From a bacterium (lineage in GTDB: Bacteria > Electryoneota > RPQS01), in assembly GCA_023382385.1 (NCBI GenBank), contig JAHDVH010000004.1, positions 1 to 64,000 of the forward strand: DNA of 64,000 nt. Reading direction: 5' to 3'. Positions within the stretch are counted from its first letter, which is position 1, and every line of letters begins with the position of its first letter. A program made the position numbers and the translations under genes. This document shows, in pieces, positions 29,652 to 39,781 of the stretch. Under the pieces are notes generated by a model. It had not been told where the DNA came from. It ran no database searches and worked only from the letters and a program-made list of their open reading frames with translations.

Positions 29652-29703
29652 CTTCTTGCGTGCCAAAACGTTGAAAAAACAATGGGTCGAGTGACAAGCA
29701 AAA

Positions 29704-29732
29704 TTGACATTTCCCCGCCGAGAGTGTATATT
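29704..29732 (+). promoter_or_regulatory. Promoter of the ispG Fe-S/isoprenoid operon
   Basis: TTGACA (29704-29709), 17-base spacer, TATATT (29727-29732). The predicted start near 29739 gives a leader of about 50 bases. The -35 box is a perfect consensus. Confidence 0.7.
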
Positions 29733-29789
29733 AACGGGTTAATAGCTTCGCTAAGCTGACAACTTAAGTCATATTTGAAAGAGTGTGCC

Positions 29790-30977
29790 GTGTTTGAATT
29801 GCCGTTAATGGGCAGTTGTACAGACAAGCCAGCCATAGGGTTGGCTCTGCCGGAGCCAGTGGAGTTCTCCCCGAAATCGTTTCGTCACAAGCGCGTGCGG
29901 GAGTGCCGAATCGGCGCGGTGACCATCGGAGGAGACCATCCGGTAGCGATTCAATCCATGACGCTGACGGACACGCGCGATGCCAAAGCGACCCTCGAGC
30001 AGATTCATCGCCTCGAAGAAGCAGGTTGTGAGATCATTCGTGTTGCGGTTCCAGATGACGAGGCAGCAGGCGCGCTGCCCGAAATCAAGAAGAACATGCG
30101 CGTTCCGCTGGTGGCCGACATTCACTTTCACTATAAGTTGGCGCTCAAAGCGATTGACGCAGGAGTCGATAAAATCCGCATCAATCCCGGAAATCTGGGA
30201 GGCGAAGGCCGCGCGAAAGTCGTGACGAAAGCGGCCCGCGAGGCTGGAGTGGCGATGCGCGTGGGTGTGAATTCGGGTTCGCTGGAAAAGGATATCATTG
30301 ACAAGTATCAGGGCCCGACACCCATGGGCATGGTCGAGTCGGCGATTCGGCATCTGGAGTTTCTGGAGGACGAGGGATTCACAAACACCACAGTGTCTCT
30401 GAAGGCTTCCAATGTGCCGCGCATGATTGAAGCGTATACGCTGTTTCGTGAACGTAGCGACTACCCGCTGCATCTGGGAGTGACCGAGGCGGGACCACTC
30501 TTTACGGGTTCAATTAAGTCCGCGCTCGGTATTGGCTATCTTCTGCAAAACGGCATCGGCGAGACGCTGCGAGTGTCACTCACGGCGGACCCGGTGCAGG
30601 AAGTCAAGGTAGCGTGGGAGATTCTTAAGTCACTTGGTCTGAGGACAAAAGGTGTGAATCTGGTGGCGTGCCCGTCCTGCGGACGCTGTGAAGTGGACTT
30701 GCTGGACCTGACAGCCCGCGTGGAACAGGCCGTTTCCAAGATAGAGAAGCCACTGCATATTGCGGTAATGGGCTGTGTTGTGAATGGTCCCGGTGAAGCG
30801 CGCGAGGCAGACCTCGCGGTTGTCGGCGGCAAGGGCAAAGGCCTTCTGATGAAAGACGGCAAGGTCGTGGCAACGCTGCCTGAAGAAGAACTCATCCCCG
30901 CCCTGCTCCGCGAAGCCGATGCTTACGATGTTTCGCAAAGACCGGCTGGGAAAGCTCGGTTCATAGCAAGCGCTTAA
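29790..30977 (+). CDS. ispG: 4-hydroxy-3-methylbut-2-en-1-yl diphosphate synthase (flavodoxin/ferredoxin)
   Basis: A 395-residue IspG, the sixth MEP-pathway step, which reduces the cyclic diphosphate MEcPP to HMBPP with a 4Fe-4S cluster. The TIM-barrel part shows GGDHPVAIQSM, VPLVADIHFHY, KIRINPGNLG and RVGVNSGSLE. The cluster ligands lie in CPSCGRCE and in GCVVNGPGEA with its conserved Glu. The start is uncertain: GTG 29790 (GAAAGAG upstream), ATG 29808 or TTG 29775. It is the first gene of a ten-gene run and abuts the cupin gene with no gap. Confidence 0.96.
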   Translation: MFELPLMGSCTDKPAIGLALPEPVEFSPKSFRHKRVRECRIGAVTIGGDHPVAIQSMTLTDTRDAKATLEQIHRLEEAGCEIIRVAVPDDEAAGALPEIKKNMRVPLVADIHFHYKLALKAIDAGVDKIRINPGNLGGEGRAKVVTKAAREAGVAMRVGVNSGSLEKDIIDKYQGPTPMGMVESAIRHLEFLEDEGFTNTTVSLKASNVPRMIEAYTLFRERSDYPLHLGVTEAGPLFTGSIKSALGIGYLLQNGIGETLRVSLTADPVQEVKVAWEILKSLGLRTKGVNLVACPSCGRCEVDLLDLTARVEQAVSKIEKPLHIAVMGCVVNGPGEAREADLAVVGGKGKGLLMKDGKVVATLPEEELIPALLREADAYDVSQRPAGKARFIASA

Positions 30978-31391
30978 GTGCCCACCAAGATCTCCATCGC
31001 AGACGCATTTGCCCGCATCGATGACTACGAGCATCCGAGGATTGCCGCGCTGGTCAATGAGTGTGCGGTCAAGTTCGTCAAGCTGAAGGGGGACTTCGTC
31101 TGGCATCATCATGATGTTGAGGATGAACTCTTCATGGTCGTGCAAGGCAAACTGCTGATGAAACTGCGTGACGGCGATGTTGAGGTGAGTGCCGGTGAGA
31201 TGATTTTGATTCCGCACGGCGTCGAGCATTGTCCCGTCGCCATTGAAGAAGTGCATTTGATCTTGTTCGAGCACGCGAATACAGTGAATACGGGAAACGT
31301 CTTCAACGAAAAGACGCGCGTGACTACCGAAAACCTTGAACACTTTACCCCTTTATCCTCCGGAAACCGGAGGGAGTCCATAGAGCATTGA
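30978..31391 (+). CDS. Small cupin-domain protein
   Basis: A 137-residue single-domain cupin. The metal-binding signature is visible as WHHHDVEDELFMVVQGKL near residues 42-59 and the second box as GEMILIPHGVEHCPVA near 72-90. The metal and substrate are unknown; relatives act as isomerases, dioxygenases or sensors. The GTG start follows the ispG stop directly, and its stop overlaps the TTG of the reductase, so it is tightly built into the operon. Confidence 0.88.
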   Translation: MPTKISIADAFARIDDYEHPRIAALVNECAVKFVKLKGDFVWHHHDVEDELFMVVQGKLLMKLRDGDVEVSAGEMILIPHGVEHCPVAIEEVHLILFEHANTVNTGNVFNEKTRVTTENLEHFTPLSSGNRRESIEH

Positions 31392-32146
31392 GCAGCTTAG
31401 TAGAGAACATCCAGGTTGAGCCTCGGAAGGGGCCGAAATACAATTTCTTCGACGTCGAGGTTGTCCGCATTACCGATGTCACTCCGTCCGTCAAGCTTTT
31501 CGACCTTCGTGTGCCGGAACGCGACTCCTACAACTTCAAAGCCGGGCAGTTCATCCAGCTTGACTTCCCGTCGATTCCCGCCAAAGTCACGCGCCGCAGC
31601 TACTCGATTGCGTCGGCGCCAAACGGAACAAACGAGATTCAGCTTTGCGTGGGCCGCGTGCCGGATGGGCTGGCGACACGCATCTTGTTTGAAGAGACGA
31701 AACCCGGGTCGCACTTGAAGGGAACAGACGCCATCGGCCACTTCGTGCTTCCCGAAGTCGTCGAGAAGGAGACATGTTTCATCTCGACAGGCGTAGGGAT
31801 CGCGCCGTTTCGTTCGATGCTGCTCGACGGTTACGCGCGGGGAATCATCAAAGCGCCTGTGAGCCTGTTTTTCGGCAACCGTTACGAATCTGACATACTC
31901 TATCGCGAAGATTTTGAGAAGATGCGGCGCGAACATGGGCTGCACTTCTTCCCCGTCCTGTCGCGGCAGCACGATTGGCACGGACCGCAGGGGCATGTTC
32001 ACCTGCATTATACCAAACATTTTTCCGACCGCCGTCCAGCTACTTTCTATCTCTGCGGTTGGCGGGCGATGCTTGATGACGCTCGCGCACATCTGACCGA
32101 GATGGGCTATGATCGGAAAGATGTGAAAATCGAGCTTTACGACTAA
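31388..32146 (+). CDS. FAD/NAD(P)H ferredoxin reductase-like oxidoreductase
   Basis: A 252-residue flavin reductase of the ferredoxin-NADP reductase superfamily. RRSYSIAS (about residue 69) binds FAD, GVGIAPFRSML (about 136) and FFGNRYESDILY bind the pyridine nucleotide, and the C-terminus holds YLCGWRAMLDDARAHL. No 2Fe-2S domain is attached. In this operon it may pass electrons, through a ferredoxin or flavodoxin, to IspG, IspH or LipA; that is inference. The start is a TTG inside ATTGA, overlapping the cupin stop, with GGAGG further upstream. Confidence 0.88.
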   Translation: MSSLVENIQVEPRKGPKYNFFDVEVVRITDVTPSVKLFDLRVPERDSYNFKAGQFIQLDFPSIPAKVTRRSYSIASAPNGTNEIQLCVGRVPDGLATRILFEETKPGSHLKGTDAIGHFVLPEVVEKETCFISTGVGIAPFRSMLLDGYARGIIKAPVSLFFGNRYESDILYREDFEKMRREHGLHFFPVLSRQHDWHGPQGHVHLHYTKHFSDRRPATFYLCGWRAMLDDARAHLTEMGYDRKDVKIELYD

Positions 32147-32193
32147 GGTCTAAGTGAATCCTGAGAATTCAAAGCAGAAAAGGGATGCGGTCC

Positions 32194-32454
32194 ATGAGCA
32201 CCATTGAAACGACGACCGATCTCGATCAGGAACTGGCACAGAAAGTGACCAGACTGTTGGATATGTTTCGTCCGATCTTTCAGTCAGAAGGCGGGGATGC
32301 GCAGCTTTTGTCGCTGAAGGACGGCGTAGCGACGATTTCCATGGGCGGAGGATGTGACGGCTGCGGAGGATCTCTTTCGGCTATGGAGGGCGGCGTCACG
32401 CGCACGCTGCTGGAAAAAGTGGACGGCCTCAAGGATGTGCTGATTGTCCAGTGA
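32194..32454 (+). CDS. NifU C-terminal-domain (Nfu) Fe-S scaffold/carrier
   Basis: An 86-residue Nfu-type protein that binds an Fe-S cluster between two subunits and passes it on. The CxxC ligand pair is in GGGCDGCGGS near residue 53, preceded by MFRPIFQSEGGDAQL, the conserved start of the domain. The ATG at 32194 is chosen over 32185 because the AAAAGGG site ends right at 32184. In E. coli the related NfuA restores the auxiliary cluster of lipoyl synthase, and lipA is six genes downstream here. Confidence 0.93.
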   Translation: MSTIETTTDLDQELAQKVTRLLDMFRPIFQSEGGDAQLLSLKDGVATISMGGGCDGCGGSLSAMEGGVTRTLLEKVDGLKDVLIVQ

Positions 32455-32513
32455 CGCGTTCGAGTTTATGAGTTTGGCGTCCGGGCACAATTCGTTATCA
32501 TAAGGGAAGTGAC

Positions 32514-33359
32514 TTGGTAAAGATACTCGACCGGATTTGGCTGATCTTCTCATCGGTCAAGCTGACCATCGTGCTGCTGTTCCTGTTCGCAATTGCGATG
32601 GGCTACGGCACATGGATTGAGACCGTCTATTCAAACGGGGCAGCACGGATACTCATCTACCGCACATGGTGGTTCGATCTGATGATTGTGCTGCTCGCGC
32701 TGAACCTGATCGGCTGCACGTTGCGACGCGCGCCTTATTCCCCGCATCAATACCCGTGGCTACTCACGCACATTTCGCTCCTGTTGATTATGGCCGGCTC
32801 ATTGGTCACCCACAGGTTCGGAATGCAGGGGCAGATGGTGATTCTGGAGGGCGAAACCGAGAACCGATTCGGACTCGAACAGCTCGACCTTGAGAACTGG
32901 GAGACAACGATCGGTGAAGAGCGTGTGCTGCCCTTCGGCGTTCATTGTGTCAATTTCGAACAGGTCTTCTACCCGGGCACAGGCATGACGTCGCTGTTCA
33001 AGTCGCACGTGATCGTGGATGATCCCGGTAATCCCGAGCGGATTGAATGGGATGTTATTCTCAATCACCCGCTGGTCTACAAGGGCTACAAAATCAGTCA
33101 GGCATCATGGATTGACTTGCCCGATGGACGGCAAGCCACAGTGCTCGGAGTATCCTATGACCCGGGTATCCCCTACCTGTACATCGGTGGCAGTTTGCTC
33201 GTGCTGTCCATGGTCGGGATTATCTTTTTGAAGCCGTGGCTGAAACGACGATTTCCCCCGAAGCAGCGCTTGACGCAGCGGGAATTGCTCGAGAATACTG
33301 AAATGACTGAGGAATTGATGGCTGAATCTCCCAACCTTAAAGAGGGAGCCAACGTATGA
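32514..33359 (+). CDS. resB: ResB-like cytochrome c biogenesis protein
   Basis: A 281-residue membrane protein. Two to three N-terminal helices (about 15-35, 55-75, 82-100), a periplasmic beta-rich domain (about 105-225, with NHPLVYKGYKISQASW, a ResB hallmark) and a last helix near 225-245. With CcsA it forms the system II haem-transfer complex that attaches haem to c-type cytochromes. It is shorter than B. subtilis ResB. The start is TTG 32514 with AAGGGAAG close upstream. Its stop overlaps the ccsA start (ATGA). Confidence 0.88.
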   Translation: MVKILDRIWLIFSSVKLTIVLLFLFAIAMGYGTWIETVYSNGAARILIYRTWWFDLMIVLLALNLIGCTLRRAPYSPHQYPWLLTHISLLLIMAGSLVTHRFGMQGQMVILEGETENRFGLEQLDLENWETTIGEERVLPFGVHCVNFEQVFYPGTGMTSLFKSHVIVDDPGNPERIEWDVILNHPLVYKGYKISQASWIDLPDGRQATVLGVSYDPGIPYLYIGGSLLVLSMVGIIFLKPWLKRRFPPKQRLTQRELLENTEMTEELMAESPNLKEGANV

Positions 33360-35092
33360 AGAAGGCCCTGATCCTGCTCGTCGCCTTGCTGGCGGTCTTG
33401 ACTTTGGCACAGGCGGAAGAGAAATTCGACTGGAACCTCGCCGGCAAGATTGTCGTGCAGGACGGCGGACGTCTGAAACCGCTCGACACTTTTGCACGCG
33501 AACTTGTCACTGATGTCATTGGCAAAGACCGTTACGAAGGACAGCATCCCGTAGAAACCTACTTCCGGTGGATGGCGGAAGGAAGCCGCTGGTCACAGAT
33601 GCCGTTGCTGTATTTGCCCAAAGGAGATTTGAGGCAGGAGCTTGGATTACAGGATCAGCCCGGCAGCCGCTTCTCGATCGCCGAGTTGCACGGCAAGCCG
33701 CGTTTGATGCAGATTGTCATGGAGGCTCAACAGGCGCAAAAAGCAGGCGAGAAGCTGACCTTCACCCAGTCGAAGGCCAACGAAGTCCTGCATAAACTGA
33801 ACGTGCTCGCGTCCGTGTTCAGCCATGACCTGCCGCTGTTCGTCCCGCCGCTCTCGGGCGACGCGAAGACGGTGACTTGGATGACGATGCCTCAAATGCT
33901 GGCGTTGGTCGATCACGACTCCGTGCACGGACGTGCTACCAACGATGTGTATTCGACGCTCGGATTGGCGTTCGCCGGAATGTATCACTCCGTGTCGGAT
34001 AATCGACCGGATATGTTTAACAGCTCGGCGGAGATGTTCGTCACTATGCAGAGTTCGTTGCTTGAAGGGCAGCCTGAAATTTCATCGACGCTGCGCTGGG
34101 AGATTTTCTATAACCGTCTGCAGCCGTTCTTCTGGGCGCGTCTGCTCTTGCTGCTGGGTGCTGCTCTGTTTGCGTTCAGCTATAGAGAACGTTTCGCGAA
34201 ATGGCGTGGCAGCGGTGCCTATGCGATGTTCGGGGGCCTGCTGCTGTATTCTGCAGGGATGTTCTTGCGCTGGCAGATCGGCGGGCGTGCACCGTGGTCG
34301 AATATGTACGAATCACTGCTGGCAATCGGTTGGGCAGTTGTTATTGTCTCCTTGATCTACGAATTAGTGAAGCGTGACCGGATTTTCGGTTTGTCAGGTT
34401 CGTTGATGGGCGGTATCGTGTTGTGGCTCGCGCACTACGCCAATCTGGATCGCGGAATCAATCCGCTGGTGCCCGCGCTCCAGAGCTACTGGCTGATTTA
34501 CCACGTGATTATCGTGCTCGCAAGCTACGGTTGTTTTGCGATTGCGATGGTGATCGGGCACATCCTGTTGATTGGCGCGACGAAAACCAAAGGGAATATC
34601 ACACCGCCGCTCGCGCGCATGGCAGGGGCAAATCTGCACGTTATACAAGTCGGATCGGTGTTGCTCATTTTCGGGATTCTGCTGGGCGCAGTTTGGGCGG
34701 ATTCGAGCTGGGGCCGCTTCTGGGGTTGGGATCCGAAGGAAACTTGGGCGCTGATTACGTGGTTCGTTTATATTGCATTCCTGCACGGCCGCAGCGCAGG
34801 ATGGTTAAACTGGAAGGGTTTAGCGTTTGTTTCCGTTGCCGCTTTCCCTGTAGTCGTCATGACATATTACGGCGTGAACTTCTATCTTTCCGGACTGCAC
34901 AGCTACGGCGCGGGATCGTCCCCGGGTATCCCTTGGGAAGCTTTCGCCTATTTGTTCATAGAGGCTGGATTCCTCGGATGGGTTGCCATGAAGCTCAAAG
35001 GAAAGTGGGGCAACATGACTCCCAAGCGACCTTCGAGTGACACGGCGACCGCTCCTCGAGCTATGCATGAACCTGCTGGAGCTAACCCTTGA
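33356..35092 (+). CDS. ccsA: Cytochrome c biogenesis protein CcsA with N-terminal periplasmic domain
   Basis: A 578-residue protein. An N-terminal signal (MKKALILLVALLAVL) leads to a soluble domain (about 20-250, starting with KIVVQDGGRLKPLDTFAREL), followed by about eight helices of the CcsA/ResC type. The haem-handling WWD segment reads WGRFWGWDPKETWALITW near residue 460, with conserved His residues in nearby helices. CcsA proteins usually lack the long soluble domain; similar extended forms are known in other Gram-negative lineages. It overlaps resB and dxs by four bases on each side. Confidence 0.93.
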   Translation: MKKALILLVALLAVLTLAQAEEKFDWNLAGKIVVQDGGRLKPLDTFARELVTDVIGKDRYEGQHPVETYFRWMAEGSRWSQMPLLYLPKGDLRQELGLQDQPGSRFSIAELHGKPRLMQIVMEAQQAQKAGEKLTFTQSKANEVLHKLNVLASVFSHDLPLFVPPLSGDAKTVTWMTMPQMLALVDHDSVHGRATNDVYSTLGLAFAGMYHSVSDNRPDMFNSSAEMFVTMQSSLLEGQPEISSTLRWEIFYNRLQPFFWARLLLLLGAALFAFSYRERFAKWRGSGAYAMFGGLLLYSAGMFLRWQIGGRAPWSNMYESLLAIGWAVVIVSLIYELVKRDRIFGLSGSLMGGIVLWLAHYANLDRGINPLVPALQSYWLIYHVIIVLASYGCFAIAMVIGHILLIGATKTKGNITPPLARMAGANLHVIQVGSVLLIFGILLGAVWADSSWGRFWGWDPKETWALITWFVYIAFLHGRSAGWLNWKGLAFVSVAAFPVVVMTYYGVNFYLSGLHSYGAGSSPGIPWEAFAYLFIEAGFLGWVAMKLKGKWGNMTPKRPSSDTATAPRAMHEPAGANP

Positions 35093-37059
35093 GCACAATT
35101 TCGATGGAAGACTATCCTTTGCTTGCGCGTGTGGATTCTCCAGAGGATCTGCGTAAGCTCAGCCTCGATGAATTGGAACTTGCCTGCGCAGAATTGCGCC
35201 GCTATTTGTGGGACACCATCAACGCGGTTGGCGGACACCTCGCCGCGTCACTCGGTGTCGTAGAATTAACGGCCGCACTGCACTATGTCTACAATACGCC
35301 TGAAGATCGTATTGTTTGGGACGTCGGGCATCAGGGATATATTCATAAGATTCTGACCGGCCGCCGCGACAAGCTGCCCACCATTCGCAGTCTGGGAGGA
35401 ATATCCGGTTTCCTGAAACGGAATGAAAGCGAGTACGACACGTTCGGCGCGGGTCACGCCTCCACCTCTCTTTCCGCCGCATACGGAATGGCGGTTGCCC
35501 GTGACATGAAAGGTGAAGGCCACAGCGTCGTTTCGGTTATCGGCGATGGCGGCATGACGGGAGGGCTTGCGTTCGAGGCCTTGAACAATGCAGGTCACTC
35601 GGGCAGGGATTTCACGATTATCCTGAACGACAACCGGATGTCCATTTCTCCGAATGTCGGCGCTGTTCCGAAGTTTCTGGCTAAGATGGAGACGAATCCC
35701 CTGCTCGCCCGCATTAAAGATGAGATGTGGGACCTGATGGGCAAGTCGCCGGTTGGAGCAAAGACGATGCGGGATTTTGCAGGTCGTTTCGAGGCATCGC
35801 TCAAAGGACTTGTGTCGCCCGGTATGTTGTTTGAAGAGTTCGGTTTTCAATACTTCGGGCCGTTTGACGGACACAACGTGCGCGAGGCCGTAGAGATCCT
35901 GAGAAACATCAAGGCGTCGCATAAACATCCTGTGATCGTGCATTTTCTGACGCGCAAGGGGAAAGGTTACGACGTTGCAGAGGCGGATTCTGTGACATGG
36001 CACGCCGTGAAAACTCCCGCGAAAGTCGAGCCAAAGCCTGAGGCGAACGCCGAGCCGGAAAAGGAAGCCTACATGAACATCTTTGGCAAGGCGGTGATTC
36101 AGGAAGCGAAGCGCGACTCACGCGTCTGCGTGATCACGGCCGCGATGAAAGAAGGCACCGGACTCGTTGAATTTGCGCAAGAGTGCCCTCAGCAGTTCTT
36201 TGACGTAGGAATCGCCGAAGGACATGCAGTGACATTCGCGGCTGGTTTAGCTGCCGAAGGGATGCGGCCGATCGCGGCAATCTACTCGACGTTTCTGCAG
36301 CGCGCCTACGACCATGTATTGCACGACTGCGGAATCCAACATCTGCCCGTGCTGTTGTGCATGGATCGCGGCGGATTAGTCGGTGAGGACGGCCCCACGC
36401 ATCACGGCTGTTATGATCTTGGTTACCTCTCCACGATTCCGGGTATTGTTGTGTGCGCACCGCGTGACGGGCAGGAATTGCGCAACCTTATTCACACCGG
36501 ACTGCATTGGCATGACGGCCCGTTCGCAGTTCGCTACCCGCGCGACAAAGCGCCGGACCATGTGCGCTGGGATGAACCGCCTGCGCTCCTGAAAGTCGGA
36601 AGCTGGGAAGTTCTGCGTGAAGGCAAGAAGGTCGCCGTCCTGGCGGTCGGCACGATGGTTGAGGCTGCACGCAAAGTGATTCTTGCAGAAGAATACAACG
36701 TAACTCTCGTGAATTGCCGGTTCGTCAAACCGATGGATGATATGCTGCTTGAACAGCTGCTGGACTCCCATGATGCCGTGTTGACCATTGAAGAAGGCAC
36801 GGCCTTCGGCGGATTCGGGTCACAAGTGGCGATGTATCTCAAGTCCAATGGACACGAGCATCTCTTCCACGCACTGCACTTGCCGGACAGCTACATTGAA
36901 CATGGATCGCGCACTCAGATTCTCGAAGTAGCCGGACTGTCGCCGCGGCATATATCAGAGGCCATCAACGGTCTCCTGCGCGCCGAACGGCCGACCAAGC
37001 AGGGAAGCGCCCCAAAAGACCTGATTACAAGCGGCCCTTCCCGTGGAGACGTGGAATGA
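35089..37059 (+). CDS. dxs: 1-deoxy-D-xylulose-5-phosphate synthase
   Basis: A 656-residue thiamine-diphosphate enzyme that joins pyruvate and glyceraldehyde-3-phosphate in the first MEP-pathway step. Signatures are DVGHQGYIHKILTGR, GAGHASTSLSAAYGMA, the ThDP-binding GDGGMTGGLAFEALNNAGH, FEEFGFQYFGPFDGHN, and EGHAVTFAAGLAAEGMRP with YSTFLQRAYDH in the second half. The start is a TTG inside the ccsA stop (TTGA) with GGAG seven bases upstream. It overlaps ispH by four bases. Confidence 0.97.
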   Translation: MSTISMEDYPLLARVDSPEDLRKLSLDELELACAELRRYLWDTINAVGGHLAASLGVVELTAALHYVYNTPEDRIVWDVGHQGYIHKILTGRRDKLPTIRSLGGISGFLKRNESEYDTFGAGHASTSLSAAYGMAVARDMKGEGHSVVSVIGDGGMTGGLAFEALNNAGHSGRDFTIILNDNRMSISPNVGAVPKFLAKMETNPLLARIKDEMWDLMGKSPVGAKTMRDFAGRFEASLKGLVSPGMLFEEFGFQYFGPFDGHNVREAVEILRNIKASHKHPVIVHFLTRKGKGYDVAEADSVTWHAVKTPAKVEPKPEANAEPEKEAYMNIFGKAVIQEAKRDSRVCVITAAMKEGTGLVEFAQECPQQFFDVGIAEGHAVTFAAGLAAEGMRPIAAIYSTFLQRAYDHVLHDCGIQHLPVLLCMDRGGLVGEDGPTHHGCYDLGYLSTIPGIVVCAPRDGQELRNLIHTGLHWHDGPFAVRYPRDKAPDHVRWDEPPALLKVGSWEVLREGKKVAVLAVGTMVEAARKVILAEEYNVTLVNCRFVKPMDDMLLEQLLDSHDAVLTIEEGTAFGGFGSQVAMYLKSNGHEHLFHALHLPDSYIEHGSRTQILEVAGLSPRHISEAINGLLRAERPTKQGSAPKDLITSGPSRGDVE

Positions 37060-38006
37060 GCATGAAAGTCTTAGTGGACCCGCGCGCGGGTTTCTGCGGC
37101 GGCGTCCGCCGCGTAGTGAAGATGGCCGAAAAGGTCATGAGTGACACGGGATTGCCGCTCGTATCGCTGGGTGACATCATTCACAATGAAGTTGAAATTT
37201 CGCGCCTTGAAAAGAGCGGATTATCTTCGATTGATCACAGCGGCATGGCCGCACAGAGTGGCCCGAAACAAGTGTTGATTCGTGCGCACGGCGAACCGCC
37301 GGAAACTTATGCAAAAGCTAAGGAGCTTGGCGTTGAACTGATTGACGGAACCTGTCCGGTTGTGACGCGTTCTCAAAATATCGCGCGCAAACATTACGAA
37401 GCCGGGTCTCAGGTCGTCATCATCGGCAAACCGTACCATCCCGAAACTATCGGCATCAAAGGTCACTGTGACAACGAAGCGTTTGTTGTCTATGAACGCG
37501 AAGATGTCAGGCAACTCGATCCCGAGAAGAAGGTCTTCATCCTTGCGCAGACCACAGTCGCAAAGGAGTGGTTCGAAGAACGCATCGCGTGGATCAAGGA
37601 GTATGCTCGTGACGTTGAAGTGCAGGTTGAGAATACGCTCTGCCGCTTTGTCGTTGGCCGCGACCGCGACCTCGAGCAATTTGCCACTCAAGTGGACGTT
37701 ATCCTGATGGTCGGCGGGACGAAGAGTTCCAACACCAAGGCGCTCTATGGCGTCTGCAAACGCATGAATGATCGTGCTCATCTTATCGTGGATGAGCATG
37801 ACATTGACTTCTCGTGGTTCCGTGACGGCGATACCATCGGCGTGACGGGTTCGGCTTCCACTCCTCACTGGCTCTTGGAAAAAGTCCGTGATCTCATCGG
37901 TGAGCGCACTGGTGCCGACGTTTTGCGGGATACGACCCAATGGCAGGCGCAGCAGCAGGAGCAGGAGCTTGAAGAAATGGAAAAAGACGACTGCGAGTGT
38001 GACTGA
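37056..38006 (+). CDS. ispH: 4-hydroxy-3-methylbut-2-enyl diphosphate reductase
   Basis: A 316-residue 4Fe-4S enzyme, the last MEP-pathway step, making IPP and DMAPP. The three cluster cysteines lie in AGFCGGVRR (near residue 14), DGTCPVV (near 98) and ENTLCRF (near 194). Substrate residues are in LGDIIHNEVE, RAHGEPPE, KPYHPETIG and TGSASTP. The third-Cys region (NTLCRFVVGRDRDL) differs from the E. coli type. The C-terminal extension is Gln/Glu rich. It starts in an ATGA overlap with dxs. Confidence 0.97.
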   Translation: MSMKVLVDPRAGFCGGVRRVVKMAEKVMSDTGLPLVSLGDIIHNEVEISRLEKSGLSSIDHSGMAAQSGPKQVLIRAHGEPPETYAKAKELGVELIDGTCPVVTRSQNIARKHYEAGSQVVIIGKPYHPETIGIKGHCDNEAFVVYEREDVRQLDPEKKVFILAQTTVAKEWFEERIAWIKEYARDVEVQVENTLCRFVVGRDRDLEQFATQVDVILMVGGTKSSNTKALYGVCKRMNDRAHLIVDEHDIDFSWFRDGDTIGVTGSASTPHWLLEKVRDLIGERTGADVLRDTTQWQAQQQEQELEEMEKDDCECD

Positions 38007-38054
38007 GAAGGTGTTTGATTTGCAGCGACCTTAGGTGCTGCTCGAGAGATACAC

Positions 38055-38963
38055 ATGCAAGCATTACCTATTTTAACCGATACCGAACCTAATTCGCCGC
38101 GCAAGCCCGATTGGCTCAAGATCCGTCTCGGGCACACGAAGAAGTTTCACGGTGTCCGAGAGCTGATTCACGGATCCAAGCTCTTCACGGTATGCGAAGA
38201 GGCCGCATGTCCGAACATGGCCGAGTGCTGGTCGCGCGGCACCGCAACGATTATGATCATGGGTGATACCTGCACCCGCTCGTGCGGATTCTGCAACGTC
38301 AAGACCGGCAAACCGCTTCCGCTTGACCCTGAAGAGCCGCGACGTGTGGCCGATGCCCTTAAGGAGTTCAGTCTGAAATACATCGTGATAACTTCCGTGG
38401 ATCGCGATGAGCTTCCTGACTGCGGCGCGGGCCACTTTGCTGAGACAATTCGCATCTGCAAGGAGATTTCGCCTGAGACACGTCTCGAAGTGCTTGTCCC
38501 AGATTTCAAGGGCAAACCCGAGTGCGTGAAGCTTGTATGTGACGCGGGTCCGGCCGTCTATGCGCACAACATGGAGACGGTTTTCCGGCTGCACGCGCAA
38601 GTTCGTCCGCAGGCGAAATACTGGCGGAGCCTCGATACGCTCGCACGTGCCAAACAGCACGGCATGGTCGTGAAATCGGGCATCATGGTGGGTCTGGGCG
38701 AAACCCCGAAAGAGGTCAAGGAAGTCATGCGCGATCTGGTGGATGCAGGTTGTGATCTCTTGACGATCGGGCAGTATATGCAGCCCTCCCGCAGGCATTT
38801 GCCTGTCATTGAGTACATCCACCCCGACCTGTTCCGAGAATACAAAGAACTCGGGCAGTCATTTGGTCTGAAGCATGTCGAGTCAGGTCCGCTGGTTCGC
38901 AGCTCCTACAAAGCGGAAACACAGGAAGATCTGATGCGGAACGGAGCACTCGCCAGAGCATAA
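38055..38963 (+). CDS. lipA: Lipoyl synthase
   Basis: A 302-residue radical-SAM enzyme that inserts two sulfurs into octanoyl groups of 2-oxoacid dehydrogenases and the glycine cleavage H protein. The radical-SAM cluster motif is CTRSCGFC. The auxiliary cluster, which is consumed as sulfur donor, is held by CEEAACPNMAEC and the C-terminal RSSY serine. LGHTKKFHGVRELI and DLLTIGQYMQPSRRHLPV are also characteristic. It lies 48 bases after ispH. Confidence 0.97.
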   Translation: MQALPILTDTEPNSPRKPDWLKIRLGHTKKFHGVRELIHGSKLFTVCEEAACPNMAECWSRGTATIMIMGDTCTRSCGFCNVKTGKPLPLDPEEPRRVADALKEFSLKYIVITSVDRDELPDCGAGHFAETIRICKEISPETRLEVLVPDFKGKPECVKLVCDAGPAVYAHNMETVFRLHAQVRPQAKYWRSLDTLARAKQHGMVVKSGIMVGLGETPKEVKEVMRDLVDAGCDLLTIGQYMQPSRRHLPVIEYIHPDLFREYKELGQSFGLKHVESGPLVRSSYKAETQEDLMRNGALARA

Positions 38964-39039
38964 CCCTGTCGGCGAAAGCCGGATGATTGGTTTCTAAGAT
39001 TTCTCAATTTTTCATTTTCAGTTTTCGGAGACTCGTAGC

Positions 39040-39363
39040 ATGATTACACTGACGGGAACGGCCCATACGAAAGTCAAGGCCATTATGGAGCAGGAACAGA
39101 AGAGCGATTGGAATCTGCGCATGGGTGTGCGCGGCGGCGGGTGCAGCGGCATGAACTACGTGCTCGGCTTCGACAACCAGCTGTCCGAGGATGATCAGGT
39201 CTTTGAGCAGGACGGCATTAAGCTGGTGTGCGACATGAAGAGCTATCTCTATTTGAACGGCACGGAGATTGATTATGAAGACGGCTTGAACGGCTCCGGT
39301 TTCGTGTTCAAAAATCCCAATGCCAAGCGCTCCTGCGGGTGCGGACAGTCGTTTAGTTCCTAA
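39040..39363 (+). CDS. A-type Fe-S cluster carrier (HesB/IscA/ErpA family)
   Basis: A 107-residue A-type carrier that delivers Fe-S clusters to target enzymes. The three cysteines are in GGGCSGMNY near residue 35 and SCGCG at 101-105. In E. coli the related ErpA serves IspG and IspH, and those clients are in the same operon here. It lies 76 bases after lipA and is the last gene before the terminator. Which A-type subgroup it belongs to cannot be decided by eye. Confidence 0.93.
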   Translation: MITLTGTAHTKVKAIMEQEQKSDWNLRMGVRGGGCSGMNYVLGFDNQLSEDDQVFEQDGIKLVCDMKSYLYLNGTEIDYEDGLNGSGFVFKNPNAKRSCGCGQSFSS

Positions 39364-39399
39364 CTAGCCGCTCGCTCTAAGCGAGAGGAATTCAGAACT

Positions 39400-39425
39400 A
39401 CGGGCCGAAATCCGGCCCGTTTTCC
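39400..39425 (+). terminator. Rho-independent terminator of the ispG operon
   Basis: ACGGGCCG (39400-39407) pairs with CGGCCCGT (39413-39420), then TTTCC. A smaller hairpin CTCGCT-CTA-AGCGAG (39371-39385) precedes it. It lies about 40 bases after the A-type carrier stop. Confidence 0.8.
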
Positions 39426-39439
39426 ATTGGTGAGAACCC

Positions 39440-39781
39440 ATGCCAGACAAGACATTTCACGAAATACCCGTTACAAAAGAGTCCCTCTGGTTTCTCGAAA
39501 GGTACCTGAATGTGTTCGATTTTCTGGAACTTTTTCCGCCGGAAGCGGTCTCTAAGGCAGACGGCTCGCACGGGCAACTGGTCATTATCCATACTGACCT
39601 TGGGTTTTCCATCGAATCCGACATCGACCACTCTAAAATGCAGCTTCGTAACCGATCTAAACTGCATGGCTGGACAAGATTTACGATGGAGCACGGCCTG
39701 CAGATTGGAGATGTTTTACGGATTGAGCGGCTGTCGCATCGCGAGTTTTCACTTAGACTAATTCGTTCAAATCAGGTGTAA
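39440..39781 (+). CDS. Small protein with B3-like DNA-binding signature
   Basis: A 113-residue protein, unknown by name. Its second half reads GW..F....GL..GD followed by a strand (Gly77, Trp78, Phe81, Gly86, Leu87, Gly90, Asp91). That spacing is a hallmark of the B3 DNA-binding pseudobarrel found in plant transcription factors and at the N-terminus of some restriction enzymes such as EcoRII. The first 35 residues look helical. No nuclease domain is attached. This is a motif-level reading only. The ATG has a GGTGAG site, lies just after the operon terminator, and is followed closely by the next small gene. Confidence 0.6.
   Translation: MPDKTFHEIPVTKESLWFLERYLNVFDFLELFPPEAVSKADGSHGQLVIIHTDLGFSIESDIDHSKMQLRNRSKLHGWTRFTMEHGLQIGDVLRIERLSHREFSLRLIRSNQV

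Follow-up and report, generated by a model that had tools for sequence, protein, structure and literature searches.

What brings genes for isoprenoid and lipoate synthesis, Fe-S carriers and cytochrome c maturation together in one tight run, and what are a cupin and a reductase doing among them? This question is raised by ten genes in the 64,000-nucleotide stretch of DNA that we analyzed (which we refer to as the window; GCA_023382385.1, contig JAHDVH010000004.1, positions 1-64,000 of the forward strand), from a bacterium of a little-studied phylum (lineage Electryoneota, RPQS01). A first-pass annotation had read the run as an operon for coordinated Fe-S supply, with the cupin and the reductase as the new parts to explain. 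We compared the locus across a phylum sample of 39 genomes, using the 11 genomes of the window's family for the cupin and reductase counts, and searched the window's genome by family profile rather than as one whole file. A literature search found no published description of such an operon.

Gene content and order

All ten open reading frames lie on the forward strand in the order first claimed (Table 1), and their tight packing (overlaps, or gaps under 80 bases) is as described: the successive gaps are 0, -4, 38, 59, -4, -4, -4, 48 and 76 bases. Family profile searches back ispG, a cupin, an FAD/NAD reductase, an Nfu-domain protein, a short ResB and CcsA, followed by dxs, ispH, lipA and an A-type carrier above the ErpA cut-off; IspG, IspH, LipA and Dxs all score above curated equivalog cut-offs. 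The gene families are as first named, except that 'flavin reductase' is unsupported as a specific name and that the Nfu protein is an Nfu domain on its own (see below). The ispG frame opens at TTG 29775, and the GTG listed in Table 1 is the likelier start because the N-termini in two relatives, G001 and G006 (contig JADLDM010000042.1), align from there. A conserved small ORF (39440-39781), with a weak, sub-cut-off B3 DNA-binding-like match, lies 3' of the hairpin that follows the last gene.

Table 1. Features of the operon in the window, with two further genes seen at the locus in relatives
Feature	Position	Strand	Evidence
A-rich box (GTTGAAAAAACAATGGGTCGAG)	29671..29692	+	About 30 bases upstream of the -35; possible UP element or regulator site
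Promoter, TTGACA-17-TATATT	29704..29732	+	11/12 match; 9/9 family members
ispG (GcpE)	29790..30977	+	PF04551, 492 bits; TIGR00612 over cut-off
Cupin, 137 aa	30978..31391	+	PF07883; alignment of 12 homologues; nearest solved structure 3d82
FAD/NAD(P)H reductase without Fe-S domain (RRSYSIAS, STGVGIAPFRS)	31388..32146	+	PF00970 and PF00175; PDB
nfu, single Nfu domain, CxxC (GGCDGCGG)	32185..32454	+	PF01106, sole match in genome
Short resB, N-terminal part of split CcsBA	32514..33359	+	PF05140; collinear with H. hepaticus CcsBA 5-328
ccsA	33356..35092	+	PF01578, TIGR03144 over cut-off; collinear with CcsBA 404-910
dxs	35089..37059	+	TIGR00204, 737.6 bits
ispH (LytB)	37056..38006	+	NF002187 and TIGR00216 over cut-off
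lipA, lipoyl synthase	38055..38963	+	TIGR00510 over cut-off
A-type Fe-S carrier, ErpA type	39040..39363	+	NF010147, 128.9 bits vs cut-off 117; sole PF01521 match
Terminator-like hairpin, short T run	39400..39420	+	Scan; hairpins at that place in relatives
MPRDYSKPPR protein (relatives)	L037:8639-9349 (reverse strand); L038:3872-4423; L040:12155-12661		
BNR-repeat-like gene (relatives)	L034:13361-14944; L035:2544-4481; L146:4315-5937 (reverse strand); L037:849-2507		

Promoter, hairpin and transcription

The consensus promoter reported in the first pass is the best match in the 12 kb scanned, and TTGAC(A/T)-17-TATATT recurs at the same place 5' of ispG in every family member with upstream sequence (shuffles, 0.2-1.1%); it is absent before ispG from two sister-family genomes. 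An AAAACA-type A-rich block stands at the distance of the A-rich box in all nine of those family members. The reported terminator was also recovered by a scan, and the relatives examined have a GC-rich hairpin 3' of the A-type gene, with a T run that is not always present.

Judged by this layout, the run from promoter to hairpin is probably a single transcript. Division into several transcription units with internal promoters would account for the several internal 9/12 promoter-like matches, which exceed shuffles (13 sites in the scanned region as compared with 6.6 +/- 2.7, one of them in the nfu-resB gap, which is only about 13 bases long in G001), but we consider this arrangement improbable, given the 4-base overlaps at four of the nine junctions, the abutting of ispG and the cupin, the conservation of the ispG promoter and the orientation of inserted genes. 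Approximately twenty inserted ORFs judged to be real, from nine relatives, all have the orientation of the operon, as cotranscription of the run would predict. Longer antisense ORFs in three slots were judged spurious; the sense ORF was preferred in each on the strength of a Pfam match or a counterpart in another genome.

Conservation of the operon in relatives

Comparison of gene order with related genomes, which the first pass had proposed as a check, shows that the core ispG-nfu-resB-ccsA-dxs-ispH-lipA-A-type carrier is conserved in the family, the order being kept at about 45-97% protein identity across genera. Contigs permitting, G001 to G010 carry spmAB (divergent), ispG, variable genes, nfu, resB, ccsA, dxs, ispH, lipA, the A-type carrier and the small ORF; the exception is G007, in which nfu, resB, ccsA and the A-type gene are missing at the operon locus. 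Partial orders are found in other families: ispG-dxs-ispH in sister family f2 (with lipA next wherever the contig reaches it), dxs-ispH-lipA in family f4, and resB-ccsA-ispH in two genomes of family f3, one of them preceded by ispG and KorAB-like genes. A MEP-lipA core thus seems to have been the nucleus around which the operon grew.

In that f3 genome the KorAB-like genes (named by eye; L048:9466-12839) lie between ispG and resB-ccsA-ispH, filling the interval where the window has the cupin and the reductase. Four close relatives, a same-genus genome included, carry a secreted BNR-repeat-like gene between ispH and lipA (Table 1); it is absent from the window and was probably lost there.

Fe-S clients and carriers

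As the first-pass annotation had it, three clients (IspG, IspH and LipA) and two carriers (Nfu and the A-type protein) are joined in one conserved promoter-to-hairpin unit. In the family searches of the genome, the operon holds the only PF01106 match and the only PF01521 match, and the SufBD genes are on another contig. The ErpA-type assignment of the A-type carrier is accompanied by the cysteine motifs GGGCSG and SCGCG. Its gene is linked to ispH in 10 of the 10 family genomes having one and in none of six genomes of other families, where it is on another contig; no A-type carrier was found in the sister family, which keeps the MEP core, so the carrier link is an addition rather than a need. 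The operon Nfu protein consists of the Nfu domain only (89 aa) and has no counterpart of the A-type domain of Escherichia coli NfuA; identity with NfuA was rejected (TIGR03341, 33 bits against a cut-off of 269).

In E. coli, the carriers ErpA and NfuA serve the clients IspG, IspH and LipA (PMC8593673). NfuA joins a degenerate A-type domain to an Nfu domain, and the A-type domain is required for renewal of the LipA cluster, a point for which that article cites its reference 66. The window resembles this system in having an ErpA-type carrier, an Nfu domain and the same clients, and differs from it in that Nfu and A-type, fused in NfuA, are separate genes within one operon with the clients. A single network links SufA, Nfu, Fd/FNR, IspG, IspH and LipA in the apicoplast (PMC8844926). 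There the client set and the two carrier types are alike, and an FNR-superfamily reductase occurs in the window's clade; here, however, the set is one bacterial operon, and the reductase, not of the plant FNR type, is missing in most relatives.

The explanation we favor, and hold to be probable, is a housekeeping operon that co-produces Fe-S clients and their carriers, the cupin and the reductase being later insertions. One conserved sigma-70-type promoter would drive the three 4Fe-4S clients, the MEP entry enzyme Dxs, both carriers and a split CcsBA; clusters would be assembled by SufBD-type machinery encoded elsewhere, and the A-type and Nfu proteins would probably hand them to IspG, IspH, LipA and other clients. 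A shared mRNA for clients and carriers may keep supply in step. The grouping of clients with carriers argues well for the coordinated supply proposed in the first pass, although the cupin and the reductase are the weaker part of that proposal. Because neither Dxs nor the cytochrome genes count as Fe-S clients, the Fe-S theme leaves part of the set unexplained, and plain accretion, in which highly expressed housekeeping genes collect behind a strong promoter and the client-carrier grouping is a by-product, is a possible if doubtful alternative. Accretion would suit these unrelated genes, the variable cargo described below, and the downstream small ORF and tol genes, which are likewise retained as neighbors; it suits less well the constancy of the A-type-ispH linkage and the way in which nfu keeps its order despite repeated insertions beside it.

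The insertion slot and the gain of the cupin and reductase

The ispG-nfu interval is an insertion slot, one of two slots with variable cargo among the relatives. Besides the cupin and the reductase, it holds DUF1579 and SnoaL-like proteins, a basic low-complexity protein and ORFs of unknown family. The low-complexity protein, which starts MPRDYSKPPR, occurs near nfu or dxs in three relatives (Table 1); the one of the three searched had no Pfam match. Similar proteins of about 280 aa, of unknown family, are inserted 3' of ispG in two genomes (L054:708-1550 and L041:1910-2746).

The cupin is present in 5 of the 11 family genomes, which form one clade (G000, G001, G006, G005 and G002), and the reductase in three (G000, G001 and G006), in each of which it adjoins or overlaps the 3' end of the cupin. 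The eight other family genomes, some of them incomplete assemblies, yielded no close homologue of the reductase. Because a tree of four core proteins places the two genes in nested clades (support 100), the simplest history has each gained a single time, first the cupin and later, within the nested clade, the reductase. Conservation of the pair beside ispG, which the first pass expected, is therefore borne out by half. Measured against G001, dN/dS is about 0.08 for the cupin and 0.05 for the reductase, much as for core genes, at dS values close to saturation. Purifying selection appears to act on both genes, which are hence maintained; any part that they have in Fe-S metabolism is conjectural. 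The core exists without them in other relatives.

The cupin has the motifs WHxH...DE and PHGxxH of the metal type, and its homologues in G001 and G006 stop near residue 120. It aligns with 3d82 over 94 residues (E 2.2e-21) with like histidine motifs; the sole name of the entry, 'Cupin 2, conserved barrel domain protein', carries no function that could be transferred. On its ligand-type motif the cupin is a candidate metal-dependent enzyme. We rejected it as a general partner of isoprenoid synthesis, since its homologues in other families adjoin unrelated genes (acetate kinase, nitroreductase, carboxylase and glyoxalase-like genes, by eye).

Reductase and electron supply

The reductase belongs to the FNR superfamily, with FAD_binding_6 and NAD_binding_1 both over gathering score. 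Neither a Fre-type flavin reductase (NF005963, 72.1 bits against a cut-off of 230) nor an Fpr ferredoxin/flavodoxin-NADP reductase (NF008178, 49.8 bits against 390) fits it; its top scores are to BenC/MmoC/NqrF reductase modules, and NqrF and BenC modules are nearest in the PDB. Apart from one family member, the relatives of the reductase in 80 genome contigs include several near 30% that belong to nqr-like operons and some that stand by themselves; none of them is next to ispG or a cupin.

IspG depends on a taxon-specific electron donor, which limits the enzyme in foreign hosts (PMC8896826). The family search of this genome gave no match to flavodoxin, and it found 2-oxoacid:ferredoxin oxidoreductases (POR domains at three places) and many 4Fe-4S ferredoxin domains; one stretch carries genes for a dicluster ferredoxin of 87 aa (L165:1471-1734), for oxidoreductase subunits and for an NfnAB-like pair. 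Given these, IspG and IspH are plausibly supplied without the operon reductase, as must hold in family members in which no close homologue was found. No plant-type 2Fe-2S ferredoxin was found in a short frame: both Fer2 matches in the genome are in long frames, and joint gain of such a ferredoxin with the reductase was not seen.

In the housekeeping explanation, the most likely source of electrons for IspG and IspH would be a 4Fe-4S ferredoxin that takes its own from the 2-oxoacid:ferredoxin oxidoreductases or the NfnAB-like pair, and the cupin, then the reductase, would have entered a permissive slot 3' of ispG. Alternatively, both could be working parts, electrons passing from NAD(P)H through the reductase and a 4Fe-4S ferredoxin to IspG, IspH and LipA, with the cupin helping (for example, in a metal-binding or protective role). 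The superfamily of the reductase, its place beside the cupin and downstream of ispG, and the selection on both genes are consistent with this, as are the apicoplast, in which FNR with ferredoxin is the IspH donor (PMC8844926), and the KorAB-like genes of the f3 genome (named by eye), likewise a source of reduced ferredoxin. We nevertheless think it unlikely, considering the restriction of both genes to a minority of the family, the other electron sources in the genome, the score far under the Fpr cut-off and the unrelated neighbors of cupin relatives in other families. Still less probable is a self-contained client-carrier-electron module, in which the A-rich box would bind an Fe-S or redox sensor and the reductase and cupin of the youngest clade would give IspG and IspH an NAD(P)H-driven electron supply of their own.

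A split cytochrome c synthase

Together, resB and ccsA are collinear with the fused H. hepaticus CcsBA (PDB 7s9y). We assigned CcsBA/system II by a CcsA domain with the heme-handling WWD segment plus a CcsB partner; TIGR03144 scores 189 bits against 187.6. The natural gene break falls between CcsBA residues of about 328 and 404, and not at the ccsB/ccsA junction (659) of the fused protein. ccsA carries an extra domain at its N-terminus, with a start resembling a signal peptide (by eye). In recombinant form the fused CcsBA is proteolysed at 368, and a split engineered at that point retains at least 15% activity (PMC6299221). By its sequence, the pair is a split CcsBA cytochrome c synthase, broken at a linker that tolerates an engineered split; nature thus uses a break so far made by engineering in H. 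hepaticus CcsBA. The same split form occurs in the two f3 genomes. Cytochrome c maturation, listed among the operon's functions in the first pass, is part of the conserved core, but a second, canonical full-length ResB/CcsA pair lies elsewhere (C2:320474), beside a gene with CxxCH motifs.

Conclusion

The operon is real, conserved and biologically sensible, but built of known parts. The organism has its clients in one operon with the only Nfu and the only A-type carrier detected, and no flavodoxin was found; this makes it an uncomplicated natural case in which to test how Fe-S clients are matched to their carriers and donors.
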